From the NCBI RefSeq assembly GCF_900167025.1, contig NZ_FUXC01000012.1:1-64000 (forward strand): 64,000 nucleotides of DNA, read 5' to 3'. Source of the stretch: Treponema berlinense (GTDB lineage Bacteria; Spirochaetota; Spirochaetia; Treponematales; Treponemataceae). The position numbers were made by a program, and so were the translations under genes. The notes under the pieces are model-generated. The model had not been told where the DNA came from. It saw only the letters and a list, made by a program, of their open reading frames with translations, and searched no databases. Position 1 is the first letter of the stretch. Each line of letters starts with the position of its first letter. Positions 54,095 through 64,000 of the stretch are shown here, piece after piece.

Positions 54095-55660
54095 TTACAG
54101 AGTTACACCGTCTTTGAAGATTGCAATTTCGCGGTAGCCGTTGATTTCGTTCTTTGTCTGTTTTTTTCCAGAACAAATATCGCAAATCAATTCAAGGAGA
54201 GCGTCGCGTACTTTGTCGCTTGGCTCGTCTAAAAGGCGTGCTGCGTCAAAATCAATCCAGTCAGATTTTTTTTCTGCGAGAGGATGATTTGTTGCAATTT
54301 TTACAGTTGGAACAGGAGCACCGAGAGGAGTTCCGCGTCCAGTAGAGAACAGAATAATGTTTGCTCCAGCAGCAGTCATATCTGTTGTAGAAACAATGTC
54401 GTTGCCTGGACCTTCAAGAAGAGTAAGACCTTTTTCTGTCAGACGTTCACCATATTTGAGGACACCTGTAACAGGCGCTTTTCCACCCTTCTGAACACAA
54501 CCCAAAGATTTGTCTTCGAGAGTTGTAATTCCACCGGCCTTGTTTCCTGGACTTGGATTTTCGTAGCAAACCTGATTATGGCGGGCGTAATAATCTTTAA
54601 ATCCGTTGATAAGATTTACAGTTTCGTCAAAGCGTTTTTTATCAACACAGCGGTTCATAAGCATTTGCTCAGCGCCAAACATTTCTGGAACTTCAGTGAG
54701 CATTACGCGGCCGTCCATTCCGGTCATAGCATCGCAAACCCGGCCAATCAAAGCATTTGCCGTAATTCCAGACATTCCGTCCGAACCACCGCACTTCATT
54801 CCAAGAACAACTTCTGAAAGAGGAACAGACTCGCGCTTAAACTGGCCAACATATTTTACAAGTTCAGTAATCAGTTCTTTTCCAGCCGAAAGTTCATCTT
54901 CTGTTTGCTGAGTTGTCATGAATTTTACGCGGTTTTCATCATATTCGCCCAAAAACTCCTTAAAATAAGGAATATTGTTTTCTTCACAACCGAGAGAAAC
55001 AACGAGAACGCCGCCGGCATTCGGGTGATGAACTAAATCTGCCAAAATTTTTGCAGTTGTTTCTTTGTCGCCACCCATCTGAGAACAGCCATAAGGATGA
55101 GTCCATGCAAAAATTCCTTCAAGACCGCCATTTGTATTTGGTTTTGGCTCTTCGCCATCAAAAAATTTTGCGTTTGCCCATGTTGCAAGGCGTTCAGAAA
55201 TTTTATTAACACAGCCAACAAGCGGAACAATCCAAATTTCGTTACGAATACCAATGCGGCCGTCTGCGCGTTTGTAAACGTTTACAGAAGGAACATTTTT
55301 GCGCAAGTCTTCGGTTTCCTTGTACCATTTTTCGTAAGCGGCTTTTGCGTTTTCTTCATTATAAGTGTATTCAAATTTTTCAGAAAGCAAGGTGTGAATG
55401 TTGTGTGTGTGAACATGGCTTCCAACAGGAATATCCTGAGTAGCAGCGCCAATCGGATATCCGTATTTTATGATAGGCTCGTCTTTTTTAATGTCGCGGA
55501 TTGCGAATTTATGACCGGCTGTAATATCCTCTGTAAGAGTTACCTTAGTTTCCGGCGCATTTCCAGAAGCTTCAAGAGTAACTTCCGTACCTTTTGCCAG
55601 TGGCTGAAGTGCGACAGCTACAATGTCAGCCGAATTAATTCTAATAGCGATTTTGCTCAT
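54095..55660 (-). CDS. uxaA: Altronate dehydratase
   Basis: The 521-residue enzyme dehydrates altronate to 2-keto-3-deoxygluconate, the third step of galacturonate breakdown. It has an N-terminal SAF domain ('GHKFAIRDIKKDEPIIKYGYPIGAATQDIPVGSHVHTHNI', about 49-88) and the UxaA catalytic region with 'GRIGIRNEIWIVPLVGCVN', 'AWTHPYGCSQMGGD', 'VLGMKCGGSDGMSGITANALIGR' and 'ILFSTGRGTPLGAPVPTVKIATN'. The conserved Cys/His residues that bind the metal are present. It lies downstream of uxaB on the same strand but with a terminator and repeat copy G between them, so it probably has its own promoter. Confidence 0.97.
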   Translation of the reverse strand: MSKIAIRINSADIVAVALQPLAKGTEVTLEASGNAPETKVTLTEDITAGHKFAIRDIKKDEPIIKYGYPIGAATQDIPVGSHVHTHNIHTLLSEKFEYTYNEENAKAAYEKWYKETEDLRKNVPSVNVYKRADGRIGIRNEIWIVPLVGCVNKISERLATWANAKFFDGEEPKPNTNGGLEGIFAWTHPYGCSQMGGDKETTAKILADLVHHPNAGGVLVVSLGCEENNIPYFKEFLGEYDENRVKFMTTQQTEDELSAGKELITELVKYVGQFKRESVPLSEVVLGMKCGGSDGMSGITANALIGRVCDAMTGMDGRVMLTEVPEMFGAEQMLMNRCVDKKRFDETVNLINGFKDYYARHNQVCYENPSPGNKAGGITTLEDKSLGCVQKGGKAPVTGVLKYGERLTEKGLTLLEGPGNDIVSTTDMTAAGANIILFSTGRGTPLGAPVPTVKIATNHPLAEKKSDWIDFDAARLLDEPSDKVRDALLELICDICSGKKQTKNEINGYREIAIFKDGVTL

Positions 55661-55976: not shown

Positions 55977-57542
55977 CTATTTTACAATGTCTGCAAGTGC
56001 GGCTTTCATACCCTTAGTCTGAATGTCTGCGAGGTTCTGTGCTACGCTTGCTTCGAGTCCTTTGTATTTTGTGAGGTCTTCTTTCCAGAAGTCAACATTT
56101 GAAAGAACTTTGTTTGTAATAACTTTTGCGTCTTTTGTTTCTTTGTTGAGGGCAGCAAAGAATTCGAGAACTGGAAGTGTATCTTTGTTTGGATAAACGC
56201 CTTCTTCTCTCTTTGATTCAAGATATTTTGCGCCTTTTTCGTCTGTTTTGATTTCTGTTCCGTTGTAGAAAGCAATCAAAGCGGCAATTGAGAACGAAAG
56301 AAGTTTTGGAACTGAGTTGTTCTTTGCCATGTACTGTGTTACAGATGGAAGACAACGTGTCCAGTATTTTGCAACTGAGTTCAAAGAAATTTCGATCAAG
56401 CGGTGCGGGTTGAACGGATTCTGGAAGCGTGACCATACATTTTCTGCGTATTCCTTAAGGTCTTCCTGATCTCCGTTGATTGAAGGAATGATTTCGTTGA
56501 AGATTACGTTGCGCATAAATTTCTGGGCGTCAGCGTTTGGTGTGTTAAAGCCTGTTCCAACTTTTTCTGAACATACAATGTCCTGAACGTAGTTTGAACC
56601 TGCAAGGAAAGCTGCCAATACAGAAGATGTGTGTGCGCCGTTCAAGATGCGTACTTTTCTTGTGTGGTAGTAATCCATGTTCTGAACCCACTTAACAGAA
56701 AGTCCTGCTTTAACGAGTGGAAGCTCATCTTCGTGTGATTTTTTAGATTCGATAACCCAGAAGTGGAAAAGTTCTGCTGAGTCGAGGAGTTTATCTTCGT
56801 AGCCAAGTTTTTCGCAAATTTCTTCAGCCTGAGTTTTGCCTGTTTTTTCATTTTTTGTAAGAAGTGGGAAATATCCCGGAACAATGCGGTCAACAAGACA
56901 AGAGCAGACATCGCAAGCTTCGTCAAACCAGTTGATAAAGTCTGGTCCGAGCTGCCACATTTCTGCATAGCGGAGAATGTTGATGCGGAGGTTAAGACCT
57001 GCCTGGTCAGAAAGTTCACAAGGAATAAGAATCATTCCCTTTGAAACATCGCCGTTAAAAGCCTGGAAACGTTTATAAAGGAATGCTGTAACTTTTGCAG
57101 GGAAGTTTTTCTGTGGCTTCTGGTCAAGAGTTACTGGAACGCCGTCGATTTCTGCGTCGAAACGAATACCTGCTTCAGTTGTGTTAGATACGATAAAGCG
57201 CAAGTCCGGGTTTGAAGCCAATGCAATGTAATCATCGTAATTTGTGTAAGGGTTGATAGAACGGCTGATAGAGTTGATTGTGCGTGTTTCAACTGTTGGT
57301 TTTCCGTCTTTCATGCCGCGGAGAACAGTTGTGTAAAGGTTGTTCTGAGCGTTCATTGTGTCAACCATGCCTTTTTCGAGCGGCTGAACGATTACAACAT
57401 TTCCGTTGAAGTCGGTTTTTTCGTTTACAATATCAATCTGCCAGTCTACGAATGCGCGGAGGAATCCGCCTTCACCAAACTGAAGAATTTTTTCTGGACG
57501 TTTTACAGTTTTTACAACGTCTTGTATAGACTTTAATGCCAT
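55977..57542 (-). CDS. uxaB: Tagaturonate reductase (altronate oxidoreductase)
   Basis: The 521-residue polyol-type dehydrogenase reduces tagaturonate to altronate with NADH. It belongs to the mannitol dehydrogenase family. The N-terminal Rossmann domain has 'KILQFGEGGFLRAFVDWQID', and the C-terminal catalytic part has 'MILIPCELSDQAGLNLR', 'KVRILNGAHTSSVLAAFLAG' (catalytic Lys/Asn/His region) and 'NPFNPHRLIEISLNSVAKY'. ATG 57542 has GGAGG eight bases upstream, so I prefer it to the in-frame start at 57557. It is divergent from the hybrid regulator gene, which fits control of the uronate genes by that regulator. Confidence 0.96.
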   Translation of the reverse strand: MALKSIQDVVKTVKRPEKILQFGEGGFLRAFVDWQIDIVNEKTDFNGNVVIVQPLEKGMVDTMNAQNNLYTTVLRGMKDGKPTVETRTINSISRSINPYTNYDDYIALASNPDLRFIVSNTTEAGIRFDAEIDGVPVTLDQKPQKNFPAKVTAFLYKRFQAFNGDVSKGMILIPCELSDQAGLNLRINILRYAEMWQLGPDFINWFDEACDVCSCLVDRIVPGYFPLLTKNEKTGKTQAEEICEKLGYEDKLLDSAELFHFWVIESKKSHEDELPLVKAGLSVKWVQNMDYYHTRKVRILNGAHTSSVLAAFLAGSNYVQDIVCSEKVGTGFNTPNADAQKFMRNVIFNEIIPSINGDQEDLKEYAENVWSRFQNPFNPHRLIEISLNSVAKYWTRCLPSVTQYMAKNNSVPKLLSFSIAALIAFYNGTEIKTDEKGAKYLESKREEGVYPNKDTLPVLEFFAALNKETKDAKVITNKVLSNVDFWKEDLTKYKGLEASVAQNLADIQTKGMKAALADIVK

Positions 57543-57610
57543 TTTAGAAGCCTCCAAAAATAATGTTTGATTTTATCATTTATGGATAAGACTTTCAATT
57601 AGAGGAAAAT

Positions 57611-57706: not shown

Positions 57707-57787
57707 TTAAAAATATTTTAAATCCTTTGTACAATAACGGAAGCACTTGTAAAAAAAACGACATAATAATAAAATCCGTATGATTAT

Positions 57788-60700
57788 ATGTTGGGGGAAA
57801 ATTTGAATATCGGCACGTCTGGAAAAAGAATCGGTTTTGCTCTGAGTACAATTCATTTTGGATCGTCATTAAAGCTTTGGTTTAAACTTGCAAATTACGC
57901 TTCTCAAGAAAAAGGTTCGTTTTTTATTTTTCCTGGAAGCAATTTAAGCAATTCTGGCGCAAATTCTCTTTTTAACGAAATCTATAAACTTGTTAATTCA
58001 GAAAATCTTGATGGTTTGATAAGCTGGGCTTCGAGCATAAGCAACGGCGTTTCTTACGAAAAGAGTGTTGAATTTCATAAAAAATTTGAAAATCTTCCAT
58101 TTGTAACTATTGGTCAAAAAATTAACGGCGCGCCAAGTGTTTCTTTTGATGCCTACGAAGGAATGAAAGAATTAACAAAACACTTGATTGTAGTTCATGG
58201 CGCAAAAAAGATTGCGTTTATCCGCGGTCCAAAAAATCATACTTCGGCTCAGGATCGTTTCCGCGGTTTTTTTGATGCTGTAAAAGAAGCCGGAATTTTA
58301 GACGAAAATTTGATTTCTGATTATACGGATTGGTACGAAAGCGAAAAAGGCGCGGTTCAGCTTTATAATGAAAGAAATTTAGTTCCTGGAAAAGATTTTG
58401 ACGCTCTTTTGTGTGCCAGCGATATGATTGCCCTTTCTTCGGTTGAATATTTTGAAAAGCACGGCTACAAGGTTCCAAAAGATTATATTTGCGGCGGTTT
58501 TAATGATTCTGTAGAAAGCCGCGTAAGTTCTGTTTCTCTTTCTACGGTTCATATGCCAATGGAAAAACTCGGAGTTGTTGCTTATCAGAAGCTTGTTCAG
58601 CTTTTGAATGGCGAAAAAGTGGAAGATACGGTTTTGCCGGCATATCCTGTAATCCGTGAAAGTTGCGGTTGTAATAATTTAAAGCATCTTCAGAATTTTT
58701 ATGATTCAAAAAAACGTATAAAAAACCGCGATGATTTTGTTGAAGAGATTTCAAAACTCTTTCATGCGGATGAAAAAGAGCGCGAAGAACTGATTCTGCC
58801 TCTTTTTGAAGCGTTGTTTGAAAATAATCAGTCGGATTTTTATCGCCGTCTGAGCGACGTTTTGACGGTGTATTTTAAGAAAGAAGGTGAACTTTTTACT
58901 CTATATGAGGCATTGCGTCTTTTTAAAAATTCGACATTTTTGCCGGAAGAATATGTAACGAAGGTTATAAGCACTGTAAATTTGATAATTCCTCAGATTC
59001 AGCGAAAAATTTGCGAACTTAGGACTTTTAGCGAAAAAAATGCGTCGATTGTTAGTTCGTTAAAAAGCGCCCTGCTCGCTGCCCACGATTTTGACGCTTT
59101 AATGAAAATTCTTTCGGATTATTTGCCAAAAATCGGAATTAGAAGCACGGCTCTTGTTCTTTACGAAGAAGACGGAACTTCAAGATATGTCGGTGGATTT
59201 AATTCTTCTGGCGAGCTTTGCCTCGAAGAAAAGCTTTTTTCTTCAAAACTTTTGGTTCCGGAAGAATTTAAAAAAGATTTTGAATACGGAGTTTATCTTG
59301 TCCAGCCGCTTTTTATGGAAAATAAACCTCTCGGCTATATGATAAATGGCTATTCTGACTGCGATGGAAGCGTTTACGAAGGGCTGAGGGTTTCGGTTGG
59401 AAACACGATTCAAAATATTCTTCTATTTAAAGAAATCGACAAGGCGCGTCAAAAAGCCGAAAAAGCGGAATTTGCTAAAACTGAGTTTTTTGCAAATGTT
59501 GGAAGCGAACTTTGCGATCCTTTAAAAGATTTGTCTGCAAAAATATTCCAAATGCAGGGAAATATAGAAAAAGGCATTGTAGATCAGGATATTCTTACTG
59601 AACAGCTGATATTCCTTCGCTCTCAAATTCAGTCTCAGCTTCATAAAACCGTTACTCTTGTTGAACTTACCCGTTCGCAGGTTGACGATTTGCCGATGGA
59701 TAAAAAACTTTTTGACATTCGTCAAGTTTTGCCGGGAAGCGTTGTTGCTTCCTTAAACCAGAAATTTCCGCTTATTTACGGAGATCCTGACCGCTTAAAA
59801 AAAGCCCTCCTCACTTTTTTTGGCGACGGAAAAGGCACAATGTCGCTTTCTGCCGGATATGAAGGGTTAAAAATCAACTTAAGGACAAGGCATCTCGATT
59901 GGAAAGATCCGGAATTCTTGCTGGCAGAAAAGATTATTCTTTTGCAGTACGGCGAAGTTCAAAAAATTGATGATGAATCGCTTTTGATAATTTTGCCTTG
60001 GCCTAATCTTGCAGGACTTCCGCCGGTAAAAACGGAAAAGTCTCCGAAAAATGTTATAAATCTTTCTTCTAAAGAAACAATTTCGGAAATTTTCGATATG
60101 CCGGTTGTAAATTTTGACGCTCTGGCCGATGACAAGCCCGAAAATGCAGTTCTCTACTGGCGGTCTGACAACGCTCCGATTGACGAATGGGTAAAGGTTT
60201 ACAGTTTGCGTCATAACGAAAATCTTTTCCGTGCACCGATTTTGTGTTACAGTCACGAGCTTATAAGTCATAATTTTGTTGAAATGCTTGAATCGAAGGT
60301 CCGCGCTCAAAAATCTGCTCCGGTTTTATTTATAAATGCAAAACGTACGAATTATGGAACTTGGGCGACCGATTCTAACAGCGTAAAAATTCAGTCAATG
60401 GCGGAATTTGAGCATATCCTTGAAGAAATTACACCTTCGCTGATTGTTTTTGAATCAATTGATGAAGAAAGCATAAAGAAGATCAGAAAAAATCCAAAAA
60501 CTGTCCTTGTGCCAATTATCGTCTTGCCGGAAACAATTTCTTCTGAAGAAGAAGTTGAGCTTTTGTGCGCTCATCCAAGAATTATTTTGTGTAATAGCGG
60601 AGCTGCTGATTCTGAACAGTTTGAAAGTAGAATTCACGAAATTCTCGCAGGTGATGAAATTATGCCGCCGCATACAGGCGCGCTGGTAAAAAAAGCGATT

Positions 60701-60991
60701 CTTTATCTTAATAAAAATGCTTCTCAGCAGATTGTAAGATGGAAGCTTGCCGACACTGTTCACGTTAGCGAAGATTACTTGACGAGAATTTTCCATAAAG
60801 AAATTGGACTTTCGCTCTGGGAATACTTAAATCGTTATAGAATTTTCCTTGCGACAAAAATGCTTCTTGAAACGAATGACACAATTTACGAAATTGCAGA
60901 AAAATCTGGTTTTCAGGATCAGGCATATTTTTGTAGAGTATTTAAAAAGGTCTACGGTATTCCACCTGGAAAAATTCGGACAAAACAGTAA
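57788..60991 (+). CDS. Hybrid AraC-family regulator with LacI-type sensor and kinase/receiver-like modules
   Basis: This 1067-residue soluble protein lacks membrane helices. Residues about 15-290 form a LacI/XylR-type ligand-binding domain ending 'VIRESCGC'. About 427-541 is GAF-like. About 555-735 resembles a histidine kinase: 'AKTEFFANVGSELCDPLKDL' aligns with the H-box but has Ser where His should be, and 'YGDPDRLKKALLTFF' aligns with the N-box without the usual Asn. About 786-954 is receiver-like, with Glu in 'LIVFESID' at the phospho-Asp position. 967-1067 is an AraC double HTH ('VHVSEDYLTRIFHKEIG', 'EIAEKSGFQDQAYFCRVFKKVYG'). The TTG at 57803, preceded by GGGGG, is an alternative start. 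It probably senses an imported sugar and activates the flanking uxaB and ABC genes. Module homologies are by eye. Confidence 0.8.
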   Translation: MLGENLNIGTSGKRIGFALSTIHFGSSLKLWFKLANYASQEKGSFFIFPGSNLSNSGANSLFNEIYKLVNSENLDGLISWASSISNGVSYEKSVEFHKKFENLPFVTIGQKINGAPSVSFDAYEGMKELTKHLIVVHGAKKIAFIRGPKNHTSAQDRFRGFFDAVKEAGILDENLISDYTDWYESEKGAVQLYNERNLVPGKDFDALLCASDMIALSSVEYFEKHGYKVPKDYICGGFNDSVESRVSSVSLSTVHMPMEKLGVVAYQKLVQLLNGEKVEDTVLPAYPVIRESCGCNNLKHLQNFYDSKKRIKNRDDFVEEISKLFHADEKEREELILPLFEALFENNQSDFYRRLSDVLTVYFKKEGELFTLYEALRLFKNSTFLPEEYVTKVISTVNLIIPQIQRKICELRTFSEKNASIVSSLKSALLAAHDFDALMKILSDYLPKIGIRSTALVLYEEDGTSRYVGGFNSSGELCLEEKLFSSKLLVPEEFKKDFEYGVYLVQPLFMENKPLGYMINGYSDCDGSVYEGLRVSVGNTIQNILLFKEIDKARQKAEKAEFAKTEFFANVGSELCDPLKDLSAKIFQMQGNIEKGIVDQDILTEQLIFLRSQIQSQLHKTVTLVELTRSQVDDLPMDKKLFDIRQVLPGSVVASLNQKFPLIYGDPDRLKKALLTFFGDGKGTMSLSAGYEGLKINLRTRHLDWKDPEFLLAEKIILLQYGEVQKIDDESLLIILPWPNLAGLPPVKTEKSPKNVINLSSKETISEIFDMPVVNFDALADDKPENAVLYWRSDNAPIDEWVKVYSLRHNENLFRAPILCYSHELISHNFVEMLESKVRAQKSAPVLFINAKRTNYGTWATDSNSVKIQSMAEFEHILEEITPSLIVFESIDEESIKKIRKNPKTVLVPIIVLPETISSEEEVELLCAHPRIILCNSGAADSEQFESRIHEILAGDEIMPPHTGALVKKAILYLNKNASQQIVRWKLADTVHVSEDYLTRIFHKEIGLSLWEYLNRYRIFLATKMLLETNDTIYEIAEKSGFQDQAYFCRVFKKVYGIPPGKIRTKQ

Positions 60992-61031: not shown

Positions 61032-61061
61032 TTGTCAATTTTATATAAAAAAAGTTATTAT
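61032..61061 (+). promoter_or_regulatory. Promoter of the sugar ABC transporter genes
   Basis: TTGTCA (61032-61037), an 18-base spacer and TATTAT (61056-61061) precede a short leader with GAGG before the ATG at 61081. An AraC-type regulator is encoded directly upstream. Confidence 0.5.
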
Positions 61062-61080: not shown

Positions 61081-62022
61081 ATGATCGCACAAGAAACAAC
61101 AGCTCTTAAAGCTCCAAAGAAAAACCTTTGGAAAGATGTTAAGAGACACTATTCTGTTTATGCACTGCTCGTTATCCCAGCTGTTTACTATGCTGTCTTG
61201 AAGTATGGTGCAATTGTGAACGGACAGATTGCTTTTAAAAGCTTTTTGCCTGCAGATGGAATTTGGGGAAGTAGCTGGATTGGATTCCGCAATTTCGTAG
61301 ATTTCTTCCAGTCATTCTATTTTGGTGAATTGCTTCGCAACACAATTTTTTACAGTTTGTTAAAACTTGTAATCAGTGTTCCACTTTCAATTATTCTTGC
61401 TGTAACTCTTTATGAATGTACTCATGACATTCTTCGTAGAGTTGTACAGACTCTTGCTTACCTTCCACACTTTCTTTCGTGGGTTATTATGTACGGTATC
61501 CTGCTTGTACTTTTGGCTCCTGGTGATGGTATGGTAAACGACATCGTTAAATTTTTTGGCGGTGATCCAGTAGACTTTCTTACAAACACTCACACATTCC
61601 CTGCTATTGTAATCATTTCTGATGCATGGAAGGAAATGGGATGGGCTGCAATTATCTTTATTGCCGCTTTGATGGGAATTGACCCTTCATTGTTTGAAGC
61701 TGCAATGGTTGAAGGCGCATCTGCTGTTCAGCGTGTTTGGTATATTACAATTCCGTCTATTAAACCAGTAATTGTAACTGTAGTTCTTCTTAAACTCGGT
61801 ACAGTTCTTGATGCTGGATTTAACCAGATGTTCATGTTGTACTCTGTTCCTGTATATTCTGTAGCCGATATTATCGATACTTGGGTATATCGTCAGGGTC
61901 TTCTGCAGTTCAAGTTTGCTCTTGCTACTGCCGTTGGTATTTTCAAGGGTGTAATCGGTATGCTTCTTGTAATGGCATCTAACGCTGTTACTAAAAAACT
62001 TGCTGATTCTTCACTTCTGTAA
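61081..62022 (+). CDS. Sugar ABC transporter permease (LplB-like)
   Basis: The 313-residue permease has six transmembrane helices and opens with the LplB pattern 'LWKDVKRHYSVYALLVIPAVYYAVLKYGAIVNGQIAFKSF'. 'FGELLRNTIFYSLLKLVISVPLSIILAVTLYE' and the EAA loop 'EAAMVEGASAVQRVWYITIPSIKPVI' (about 204-229) are typical of CUT1 permeases for complex oligosaccharides. The ATPase is not encoded nearby; such systems often share an MsmK-type ATPase. Being next to the uxa genes and the regulator suggests uptake of oligogalacturonides or similar, which is inference. GAGG precedes the ATG. Confidence 0.93.
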   Translation: MIAQETTALKAPKKNLWKDVKRHYSVYALLVIPAVYYAVLKYGAIVNGQIAFKSFLPADGIWGSSWIGFRNFVDFFQSFYFGELLRNTIFYSLLKLVISVPLSIILAVTLYECTHDILRRVVQTLAYLPHFLSWVIMYGILLVLLAPGDGMVNDIVKFFGGDPVDFLTNTHTFPAIVIISDAWKEMGWAAIIFIAALMGIDPSLFEAAMVEGASAVQRVWYITIPSIKPVIVTVVLLKLGTVLDAGFNQMFMLYSVPVYSVADIIDTWVYRQGLLQFKFALATAVGIFKGVIGMLLVMASNAVTKKLADSSLL

Positions 62023-62037
62023 TTAAGGGAGACTAAA

Positions 62038-62928
62038 ATGACAAAACCAAGTACAGTAAAACTTACTGCAGGTGATCGCACATTCTATATTTGTATCAAT
62101 GCTTTTCTTATTTTTATTGGTGTAATTATTGCGATCCCAATGTGGTCTACAATCACACTTTCTTTCCGTCCAAACTCATTCCTCGGAACAAACTTTGAAG
62201 GTATGTTCCTTCCTGTATGGAAATGGGATGTTTCTGCTTACAAAGCTTTGCTCGGTAACGCTGGATTTATTACAGCTTTCTGGAACTCATTGAAGATTAT
62301 GGCATTTGGTGTTGTAACTGCTCTCGCTCTTACAGTTCCTATGGCATATTGTATGTCTGTTTCTGATCTTCCAGGTCGCAAAGTCCTTAACTACTTTGTA
62401 CTTATTCCATATTTGTTCAATATTGGTGTAATCCCAACATACCTTGTTGTAACAAATCTTCATCTTACAAACCACTTGGCTTCAATCTTCTTGCCAGGTG
62501 CAATTGGTACATACAACTGTTTGATTATGCGTGGTTTCTTTGAAGGAATTCCTGAATCTTTGAAAGAATCTGCTCGTATTGACGGTGCTGCTGAATGGTA
62601 TGTTCTTGTGTCTATTATTCTTCCATTGTCAAAACCAATCATTATGACAATCGGTTTGTACTACGCTGTAAACTTCTGGAACGACTTCATGCACGCTATG
62701 CTTTACTTGAACGAAGCTTACTTGCAGCCACTTCCAATATTGCTCCGCAATATTTTGATGGCTTCTGGTATGAACGAATACGTTGAAGTAAACGCTTTCG
62801 GTAATGCTTCTGTACAGGCTATTAAGGCGGCTTCTGTATTTATGTCGGCAATTCCTATGATTATTGCTTATCCATTTATTCAGAAATACTTTACAAAGGG
62901 TACAATGCTTGGTTCTGTTAAGGGCTAA
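62038..62928 (+). CDS. Sugar ABC transporter permease (YtcP/LplC-like)
   Basis: The 296-residue partner permease has six helices. The N-terminal 'GDRTFYICINAFLIFIGVIIAIPMWSTITLSF' and EAA loop 'ESARIDGAAEWYVLVSIILPLSKPIIMTIGLYYAVNFWNDF' are typical of the YtcP branch that always pairs with LplB. 'IPYLFNIGVIPTYLVVTNLHLTNHLASIFLPGAIGTYNCLIMRGFFEGIP' is also diagnostic. Together the two permeases form the membrane channel. It starts 15 bases after the lplB-like gene with GGGAG upstream, and codon use in these genes looks biased toward highly expressed codons. A terminator-like hairpin separates it from the binding-protein gene. Confidence 0.93.
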   Translation: MTKPSTVKLTAGDRTFYICINAFLIFIGVIIAIPMWSTITLSFRPNSFLGTNFEGMFLPVWKWDVSAYKALLGNAGFITAFWNSLKIMAFGVVTALALTVPMAYCMSVSDLPGRKVLNYFVLIPYLFNIGVIPTYLVVTNLHLTNHLASIFLPGAIGTYNCLIMRGFFEGIPESLKESARIDGAAEWYVLVSIILPLSKPIIMTIGLYYAVNFWNDFMHAMLYLNEAYLQPLPILLRNILMASGMNEYVEVNAFGNASVQAIKAASVFMSAIPMIIAYPFIQKYFTKGTMLGSVKG

Positions 62929-62947
62929 GTTTTAGCACTGCATTTGT

Positions 62948-62986
62948 TGACCAGATGATAAAAAAAATATTGTCTGGTCAATTTTT
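62948..62986 (+). terminator. Intrinsic terminator, partly overlapped by a promoter
   Basis: TGACCAGA (62948-62955) pairs with TCTGGTCA (62973-62980), followed by ATTTTTT. It lies between the permease pair and the binding-protein gene and could reduce read-through. Confidence 0.8.
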
Positions 62987-63075: not shown

Positions 63076-64000
63076 ATGAAAAACTTTTTCAAGAATCTCG
63101 CGCTCATCGCTTTGGTTCTTACAGTTGCTTCTCCAGTTTTTGCTGCAAAAAAATGGAAGGCAAACAAAGACGGTACAGTTGACATTGAACTTTGGTACGG
63201 TGCTGCTGTAACAGAAGCTGGTCCACCACCTGCTGACTGGGTTGCTTATAAAATTATTAAGGAAAAGCTCGGAATTAACTTGGTTATAACAGCTCTTCCT
63301 TCAAACGAATCTGACCAGGATACAAAAATCAACGCTGCTGGTGCTGCTAACTCTCTTCCTGACTTGTTCATGGTAAGCGATAACTGTTTCCAGATTTTGA
63401 CAAAACAGAAACTTCTTGCTCCTGTAGATGATATGTTTGCAATGATGCCTAACCGCACTGCAAAACTTTATGATAAAGATGCCCGCAAGCACTCTACTGT
63501 AAACGGTGTTTGCTATGGTCTTGATCAGCCAGGTACAATCGTTCGTAACGAAGGTATCCTTATCCGCAAAGACTGGCTCGACAAACTCGGACTCAAAGTT
63601 CCTAAGACAACAGATGAATTCTTCGAAGTAATGAAAGCATTTACTTTCAAAGATCCAGATGGAAACGGAAAGAACGATACATACGGTCTCGGTGCTTATA
63701 TCGAACTTAAGCCAATGTGTGAAGGTCTTGGTGCTCGTTTTGACCCATGGTTCGGTGCATTTGGTGTTGCTGGAACTTGGTCTATGTCTAAAGACGGTGC
63801 AGGTCTTAACATCAACAAACCAGAATATTATGACGCTCTTGAATTCCTCAAGAAAATCATTGATGCAAAAGTTATTGATCCAAACTGGACAGCTTACAAA
63901 AAGGACGACTACCGTGCTTCTTGGAAACAGGGAAAATTCGGTATCTTCCGTGAACAGAACGCTGCTGCATTTGCAGAATCAAACTATGCTCCATTCGATC
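63076..64000 (+). CDS. Sugar ABC transporter solute-binding protein (partial, 3' end outside window)
   Basis: The first 308 codons are present. AAGGAGG precedes ATG 63076. The signal peptide MKNFFKNLALIALVLTVASPVFA is cleaved at VFA-AKK; there is no lipobox Cys, so the protein is periplasmic rather than lipid-anchored, unusual for this family. The mature part shows the LplA-type family-1 fold: 'VDIELWYGAAVTEAGPPP', 'FMVSDNCFQILTKQKLLAPVDDMF', 'ILIRKDWLDKLGLKVPKTTDEFFEVMKAF' and a calcium-type loop 'DPDGNGKNDTYGLG'. It would deliver a (possibly uronic) oligosaccharide to the two permeases. Own promoter and strong ribosome-binding site imply high expression. Confidence 0.9.
   Translation, partial: MKNFFKNLALIALVLTVASPVFAAKKWKANKDGTVDIELWYGAAVTEAGPPPADWVAYKIIKEKLGINLVITALPSNESDQDTKINAAGAANSLPDLFMVSDNCFQILTKQKLLAPVDDMFAMMPNRTAKLYDKDARKHSTVNGVCYGLDQPGTIVRNEGILIRKDWLDKLGLKVPKTTDEFFEVMKAFTFKDPDGNGKNDTYGLGAYIELKPMCEGLGARFDPWFGAFGVAGTWSMSKDGAGLNINKPEYYDALEFLKKIIDAKVIDPNWTAYKKDDYRASWKQGKFGIFREQNAAAFAESNYAPFD

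Follow-up and report, generated by a model that had tools for sequence, protein, structure and literature searches.

A soluble LacI-AraC hybrid regulator of Treponema berlinense without phosphorelay sites: a likely mechanical relay of a pectin-sugar signal

The window analysed here, a 64,000-nucleotide stretch of the Treponema berlinense genome (contig NZ_FUXC01000012.1, positions 1 to 64,000), encodes a large regulator between uxaB and the genes of an importer. It is likely that this protein is a soluble one-component regulator, derived by loss of the phosphorelay from a spirochaetal LacI-GAF-histidine kinase-receiver-AraC hybrid, and that it relays a pectin-sugar signal mechanically. A broader proposal, made here more tentatively, is that it represents a widespread class of phosphate-free spirochaetal hybrids, which arose from working kinases at least twice and in which the intact dead chain serves as a purely mechanical relay.

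Results

Architecture of the regulator

The chain runs from a LacI/GalR-type sugar-binding domain, without the N-terminal DNA-binding domain, through a helical domain, a GAF-like domain, a dead DHp hairpin, a dead CA domain, receiver-like domain 1 and dead receiver domain 2 to an AraC-type domain (Table 1). Strong Pfam domains are found only at the ends of the protein, Peripla_BP_3 at residues 136-293 and HTH_18 at residues 987-1065, with no HisKA, HATPase_c, Response_reg or GAF in that scan, and an NCBIfam scan likewise recognised only the two ends; the middle is therefore considered real but degenerate. No membrane span is seen (maximum 19-residue hydropathy 1.12), consistent with the soluble protein described previously, and the LacI-type sensor and the AraC domain lie in one soluble chain. 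The end of the LacI domain contains a Ser-Cys-Gly-Cys sequence (58661-58672, residues 292-295), kept in about 95% of members, which might conceivably have a metal or redox role.

A profile of residues ~507-760 built from 25 degenerate members only matched histidine kinases in the PDB at 1.5e-7, and a 96-member profile, which takes in the canonical relatives, matched them at 1.8e-20. In the AlphaFold model of residues 300-760 (mean pLDDT 90.6) long helices at residues 527-594 and 600-631 are followed by a small mixed domain, and the model resembles the DHp-CA structures of the histidine kinases HK853, WalK, DivL and RetS (Foldseek, best E 1.5e-7). The model of residues 742-965 (pLDDT 91.6) has two receiver-like folds, with the response regulators RR468 and CheY as top matches (prob 0.99-1.00, TMt ~0.6), the Foldseek E-values for the pair taken as a whole lying above 0.001 (best 5.6e-3). 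By profile, receiver domain 2 matches receivers at 8e-6 and aligns with the true Response_reg of the canonical relatives. Receiver-like domain 1 resembles the second receiver of PleD (profile, E 1.4e-3) and is also present in the canonical relatives, where it too is without a full receiver pocket. The protein thus has DHp-CA and receiver folds ahead of an AraC output, as the preliminary description of this sequence had anticipated.

That description had listed five modules, LacI, GAF-like, kinase-like, receiver-like and AraC. All five can be recognised, but the helical extension of the sensor and a second receiver-like domain had been missed; the single receiver-like domain placed at residues 786-954 does have receiver folds but is two domains, at ~756-842 and ~845-955. 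The GAF-like domain is retained on its fold and sequence pattern only, because GAF_2, searched against the genome, does not match the regulator.

Table 1. Features of the regulator, its gene and the surrounding region (coordinates are positions in the window)
Feature	Coordinates	Strand	Basis or remark
uxaA-type altronate dehydratase	54095..55660	-	GD_AH_C, GD_AH_second, SAF
uxaB, tagaturonate reductase	55977..57557	-	NF002969 564 bits, cut-off 359
Putative operator TTTGTACAATAA	57726..57737	+	upstream of the regulator's own promoter
Predicted regulator promoter, TTGTAA-17-TAAAAT	57747..57775	+	consensus match only
Hybrid regulator gene, 1067 aa	57788..60991	+	ORF; ~100 homologues
LacI/GalR-type sugar-binding domain, aa 12-300	57821..58687	+	Peripla_BP_3 1.4e-20, Peripla_BP_1 2.1e-12
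Helical domain, aa 301-430	58688..59077	+	helices in AF2 model
GAF-like domain, aa 431-530	59078..59377	+	AF2 model, phytochrome-type Foldseek matches
Dead DHp/HisKA-like helical hairpin, aa 531-632	59378..59683	+	model helices, HK matches
Ser573 replacing H-box His	59504..59506	+	alignment with relatives
Dead, shortened HATPase_c-like domain, aa 633-742	59684..60013	+	alignment with canonical relatives, model
Receiver-like domain 1, aa 756-842	60053..60313	+	AF2 model; profile match, PleD second receiver
Dead receiver domain 2, aa 845-955	60320..60652	+	AF2 model, Foldseek, profile
Glu889 replacing phospho-Asp	60452..60454	+	alignment with canonical relatives
AraC-type DNA-binding domain, aa 965-1066	60680..60985	+	HTH_18 3.9e-21
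Putative operator TTTGTCCAATAA	61015..61026	+	upstream of lplB
Predicted lplB promoter, TTGTCA-18-TATTAT	61032..61061	+	consensus match only
LplB-like ABC permease	61081..62022	+	BPD_transp_1; conserved beside homologues
LplC-like ABC permease	62038..62928	+	BPD_transp_1; conserved beside homologues
Extracellular solute-binding protein, running past the window end	63076..63999	+	SBP_bac_8; conserved beside homologues

Loss of the phosphorelay sites

The replacements of the H-box histidine by Ser573 and of the phospho-Asp by Glu889, both proposed earlier, were borne out by the alignments. The N-box asparagine had been described as missing; it is lost, but so are the G1 and G2 boxes and the ATP lid, all of them lost or deleted in the HATPase_c-like domain. 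In receiver domain 2 the acidic pair is replaced by Asn-Ala, the threonine by proline and the lysine by serine, leaving a receiver fold without phosphotransfer residues, that is, a pseudo-receiver.

All ten scored sites are kept in seven of 113 relatives, and at most three (0-3) in every other. The seven canonical proteins (L115, L116, L118, L119, L121, L128 and L129) come from the same spirochaetal order, carry HisKA, HATPase_c, Response_reg and HTH_18 where scanned and, like the window regulator, are without a strong hydrophobic span; about 100 spirochaetal relatives are without phosphorelay residues. Non-canonical relatives have Glu (32), Asp (13) or Asn (12) at the phospho-Asp position, as counted in a separate alignment, the Asp column of the ten-site alignment being gap-shifted in degenerate rows. 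The Ser573 position varies between Ser, Glu, Asn, Asp and other residues, so that Ser573 is not a substitute acceptor, and a phosphoserine at this position was rejected.

Homologues that keep His and Asp had been seen as a potential argument against degeneration. Such proteins exist, but only in the sister canonical lineages; elsewhere there are at most three of the ten sites and three isolated histidines. This distribution shows the origin of the regulator and does not refute its degeneration. The isolated histidines are in termite-gut Treponema proteins (L069, L070 and L076) whose H-box position reads EHEL or EHKL but which have none of the N, G1 and G2 boxes; their clade mostly carries other residues there.

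Could phosphate still flow, with a separate kinase or acetyl phosphate acting on the regulator? There are nine HisKA matches in the genome and many family members have Asp or Glu at the receiver position, but Glu889 cannot be a phospho-Asp, the acidic pair, the threonine and the lysine are gone, and Ser573 is not conserved, making this hardly credible. Histidine kinase and receiver folds with no functional phospho-acceptor sites agree with the earlier view of a one-component-like descendant of a hybrid two-component protein.

Selection on the dead domains

Between close pairs the mean dN is 0.14 in the dead DHp domain and 0.16 in dead receiver domain 2, with 0.17 in the sensor and 0.03 in the AraC domain. 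As dS is saturated in most pairs, omega was read from the closest pair (L044/L009), the only one unsaturated throughout, where it is 0.01-0.04 in the dead domains. The length of the kinase/receiver core is near-constant across the Spirochaetota. The dead domains are thus under purifying selection, in keeping with the retention of kinase and receiver proposed before, and therefore are not relics; a relic or pseudogene reading was rejected on this basis. It follows that the middle is very unlikely to be a decaying relic in a regulator that works, like XylR, as a simple LacI-AraC fusion, even though the same genome encodes two shorter LacI-AraC proteins without the core.

A different role for the dead domains would be that of a second sensor, with a small molecule or partner protein binding the kinase or receiver domain and gating the sugar signal. 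The pseudo-receivers of ShkA and CikA provide precedents (PMC12632262) and the extra receiver-like domain has persisted in members of both kinds, canonical and degenerate. However, conserved positions are few in the dead domains, with no conserved pocket signature, in contrast to their density in the LacI domain, and conservation in the regulator is lowest in receiver-like domain 1 and the helical domain. We regard a second sensor as unlikely.

Sensor residues, gene context and ligand

Twelve sensor residues, Trp80, Asp121, Tyr123, His132, His137, His151, Arg157, Trp182, Ser211, Asp212, Asn239 and Arg290, are identical in all seven canonical members and in almost every degenerate one, and by analogy with LacI-family structures would line the ligand pocket. 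The uxaA/uxaB genes and/or the lplB-lplC-solute-binding-protein set adjoin most homologues down to ~30% identity; the importer genes adjoin most canonical relatives too, and uxaA/uxaB are also kept by many degenerate relatives. Sampled neighbours include UxaC (6) and GH88 (5) at degenerate loci and, in a second set mixing canonical and degenerate loci, GH88 (4), GH28 (4) and UxaC (2). About ten termite-gut members had no uxa or importer match in the flanking DNA examined. Because of this neighbourhood the ligand is most likely a pectin-derived sugar, either a galacturonide or a hexuronate, and the conservation of these genes around the homologues upholds the pectin link suggested previously. 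Between lplC and the solute-binding-protein gene an inverted repeat, TTGACCAGA/TCTGGTCAA (62947-62981), followed by T-rich sequence, could be an attenuator or a processing hairpin.

Relatives and origin

In a tree built from sensor, GAF and AraC columns only, the columns of the trait itself being left out, the window protein falls inside a large degenerate clade of Treponemataceae, Sphaerochaetaceae and other Spirochaetota, and the degenerate proteins L120 and L137 adjoin the canonical L116 and L119. Monophyly of the canonical proteins is weakly rejected (AU p 0.038) and appears in no bootstrap tree, suggesting that the phosphorelay was probably lost twice; the key branch has support values of 92/82, with an odd letter make-up in several rows. 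The proposed descent from Bacteroides-type systems found no support: the nearest catalytically intact relatives come from the same spirochaetal order and are soluble hybrid kinases fused to a LacI domain, most of them beside the same importer. Judged from this tree of spirochaetal sequences, the regulator probably descended from a soluble spirochaetal hybrid kinase and not from Bacteroides-type membrane systems. A related LacI-HisKA-HATPase_c-receiver protein (L117:1957-5703) has a weak Hpt-like match at its end in place of AraC.

The same sensor core with other outputs

The two shorter LacI-AraC proteins of the genome (L174:5800-7989 and L175:3846-6017; 729 and 723 residues) match the helical/GAF core weakly and are without the kinase-like part. 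A third protein of 817 residues (L176:4765-7218), apparently a cytoplasmic sugar-sensing chemoreceptor, joins a LacI-type sensor and the GAF-like core to an MCP signalling domain, and proteins of relatives (L125, L126) match the same sensor-GAF core. Joined directly to AraC in two proteins and to MCP in one, the core appears able to drive outputs without phosphate, which makes a mechanical relay through long helices plausible.

Putative operator and promoters

The motif TTTGTMCAATAA has three copies in the 2.52-Mb genome, two of them just upstream of the predicted promoters of the regulator and lplB; the third, within unrelated genes, was discarded. The TTTGTACAATAA copy ends 9 bases and the TTTGTCCAATAA copy 5 bases before the predicted -35 boxes. 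Allowing up to one mismatch, the motif is present upstream of lplB at 22 of 41 loci, where base shuffles predict 0.2, and upstream of the regulator at 16 of 41, where they predict 0.4; having been spotted by eye in the same sequences in which it was then counted, it gives counts that are supportive and not an independent test. Nearly all motif-bearing loci belong to the clade of the window protein itself, within which compared pairs share 94-100% identity in the AraC domain, and the motif was not seen in most of the distant members. In the genome the relaxed form TTTGTMCAAWAA barely outnumbers its reversed control (19 against 15), and one-mismatch copies within the window are at chance level; only the TAA form and the positions of the motif are informative.

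These positions suggest that the AraC domain of the regulator binds the putative operator, though another regulator could do so. A site just upstream of the -35 box would suit an activator, and repression may be the alternative. No clear copy of the motif is present at the uxaB promoter, so control of uxaB by the regulator is suggested by linkage only. Within 57726-57775, some 20 bp past the TTTGTACAATAA copy, lies a TTGTAAA element that overlaps the predicted -35 box, is seen in relatives too and is possibly a direct repeat of the operator site.

Discussion

Since the phosphate sites are lost while the sensor and the pectin-related neighbours are unchanged, the signal is probably relayed mechanically. 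In such a relay a cytoplasmic pectin-derived sugar would bind the LacI-type domain, and the resulting change would travel along the helical and GAF-like domains and, in a dimer, along the long helices of DHp type, with the kinase and receiver domains, though catalytically dead, handing it on. The AraC domains would thereby be repositioned and bind the TTTGTMCAAWAA sites immediately preceding the -35 box of the regulator gene and that of the lplB operon, probably activating both. The dead kinase and receivers may keep other domains apart, form contacts within the dimer or hold AraC in an inhibited state, the last by analogy with the receiver-AraC contacts of Bacteroides hybrids.

Comparison with known systems

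No paper on the canonical or degenerate spirochaetal LacI-HK-REC-AraC architecture was found in a literature search whose coverage mostly excluded subscription journals. Bacteroides hybrids, like the window regulator, carry their kinase, receiver and AraC output on a single chain and control polysaccharide genes; they are described as membrane sensors (PMC11253607), whereas the window regulator has a cytoplasmic LacI sensor. Their receiver-AraC contacts act as an inhibitory clamp, and one of them, BT4236, has Gln at the His site and has been suggested to be phosphorylation-independent (PMC11253607). In BT4236 a changed His is reported, whereas in the whole lineage of the window regulator all sites are lost.

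E. coli XylR is described, as cited in PMC11253607, as a LacI/GalR sensor with an AraC domain (Ni et al. 2013), so that here too the AraC output of a single soluble chain is under the control of a LacI fold that binds sugar. The window regulator matches the XylR chains 4fe4 and 4fe7 only at its AraC end. XylR is not known to have a GAF, kinase-like or receiver-like core, unlike the window regulator, where a kinase-like core lies between sensor and AraC.

Phosphorylation-independent receivers are known, and pseudo-receivers share with the window regulator the receiver fold, Glu at the Asp position and the loss of the acidic pair, Thr and Lys (PMC12632262). The main text of that paper mentions neither AraC nor spirochaetes, so the present architecture is not covered there. 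The atypical or degenerate kinases DivL and RetS match the DHp-CA region in structure and profile. Neither protein is known to bind DNA. Vibrio ChiS was also considered as a possible precedent.

The seven canonical spirochaetal hybrids share the domain order, the sensor residues and mostly the adjoining importer with the window regulator, but keep H, N, G1, G2, DD, D, T and K, of which the window regulator keeps none. What is new is a whole lineage without any site in which all domains are kept, together with intact sisters sharing its input residues and neighbours. As the sensor residues and importer are the same in both kinds, canonical and dead versions can be compared directly, a natural experiment in which input and gene context stay constant while the phosphorelay is present or absent. 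The comparison asks what phosphate contributes and whether kinase and receiver folds alone can pass a signal, and the question of pseudo-receiver signalling becomes testable within one protein family, which also offers a likely regulator and putative operator for pectin-sugar use in rumen Treponema.
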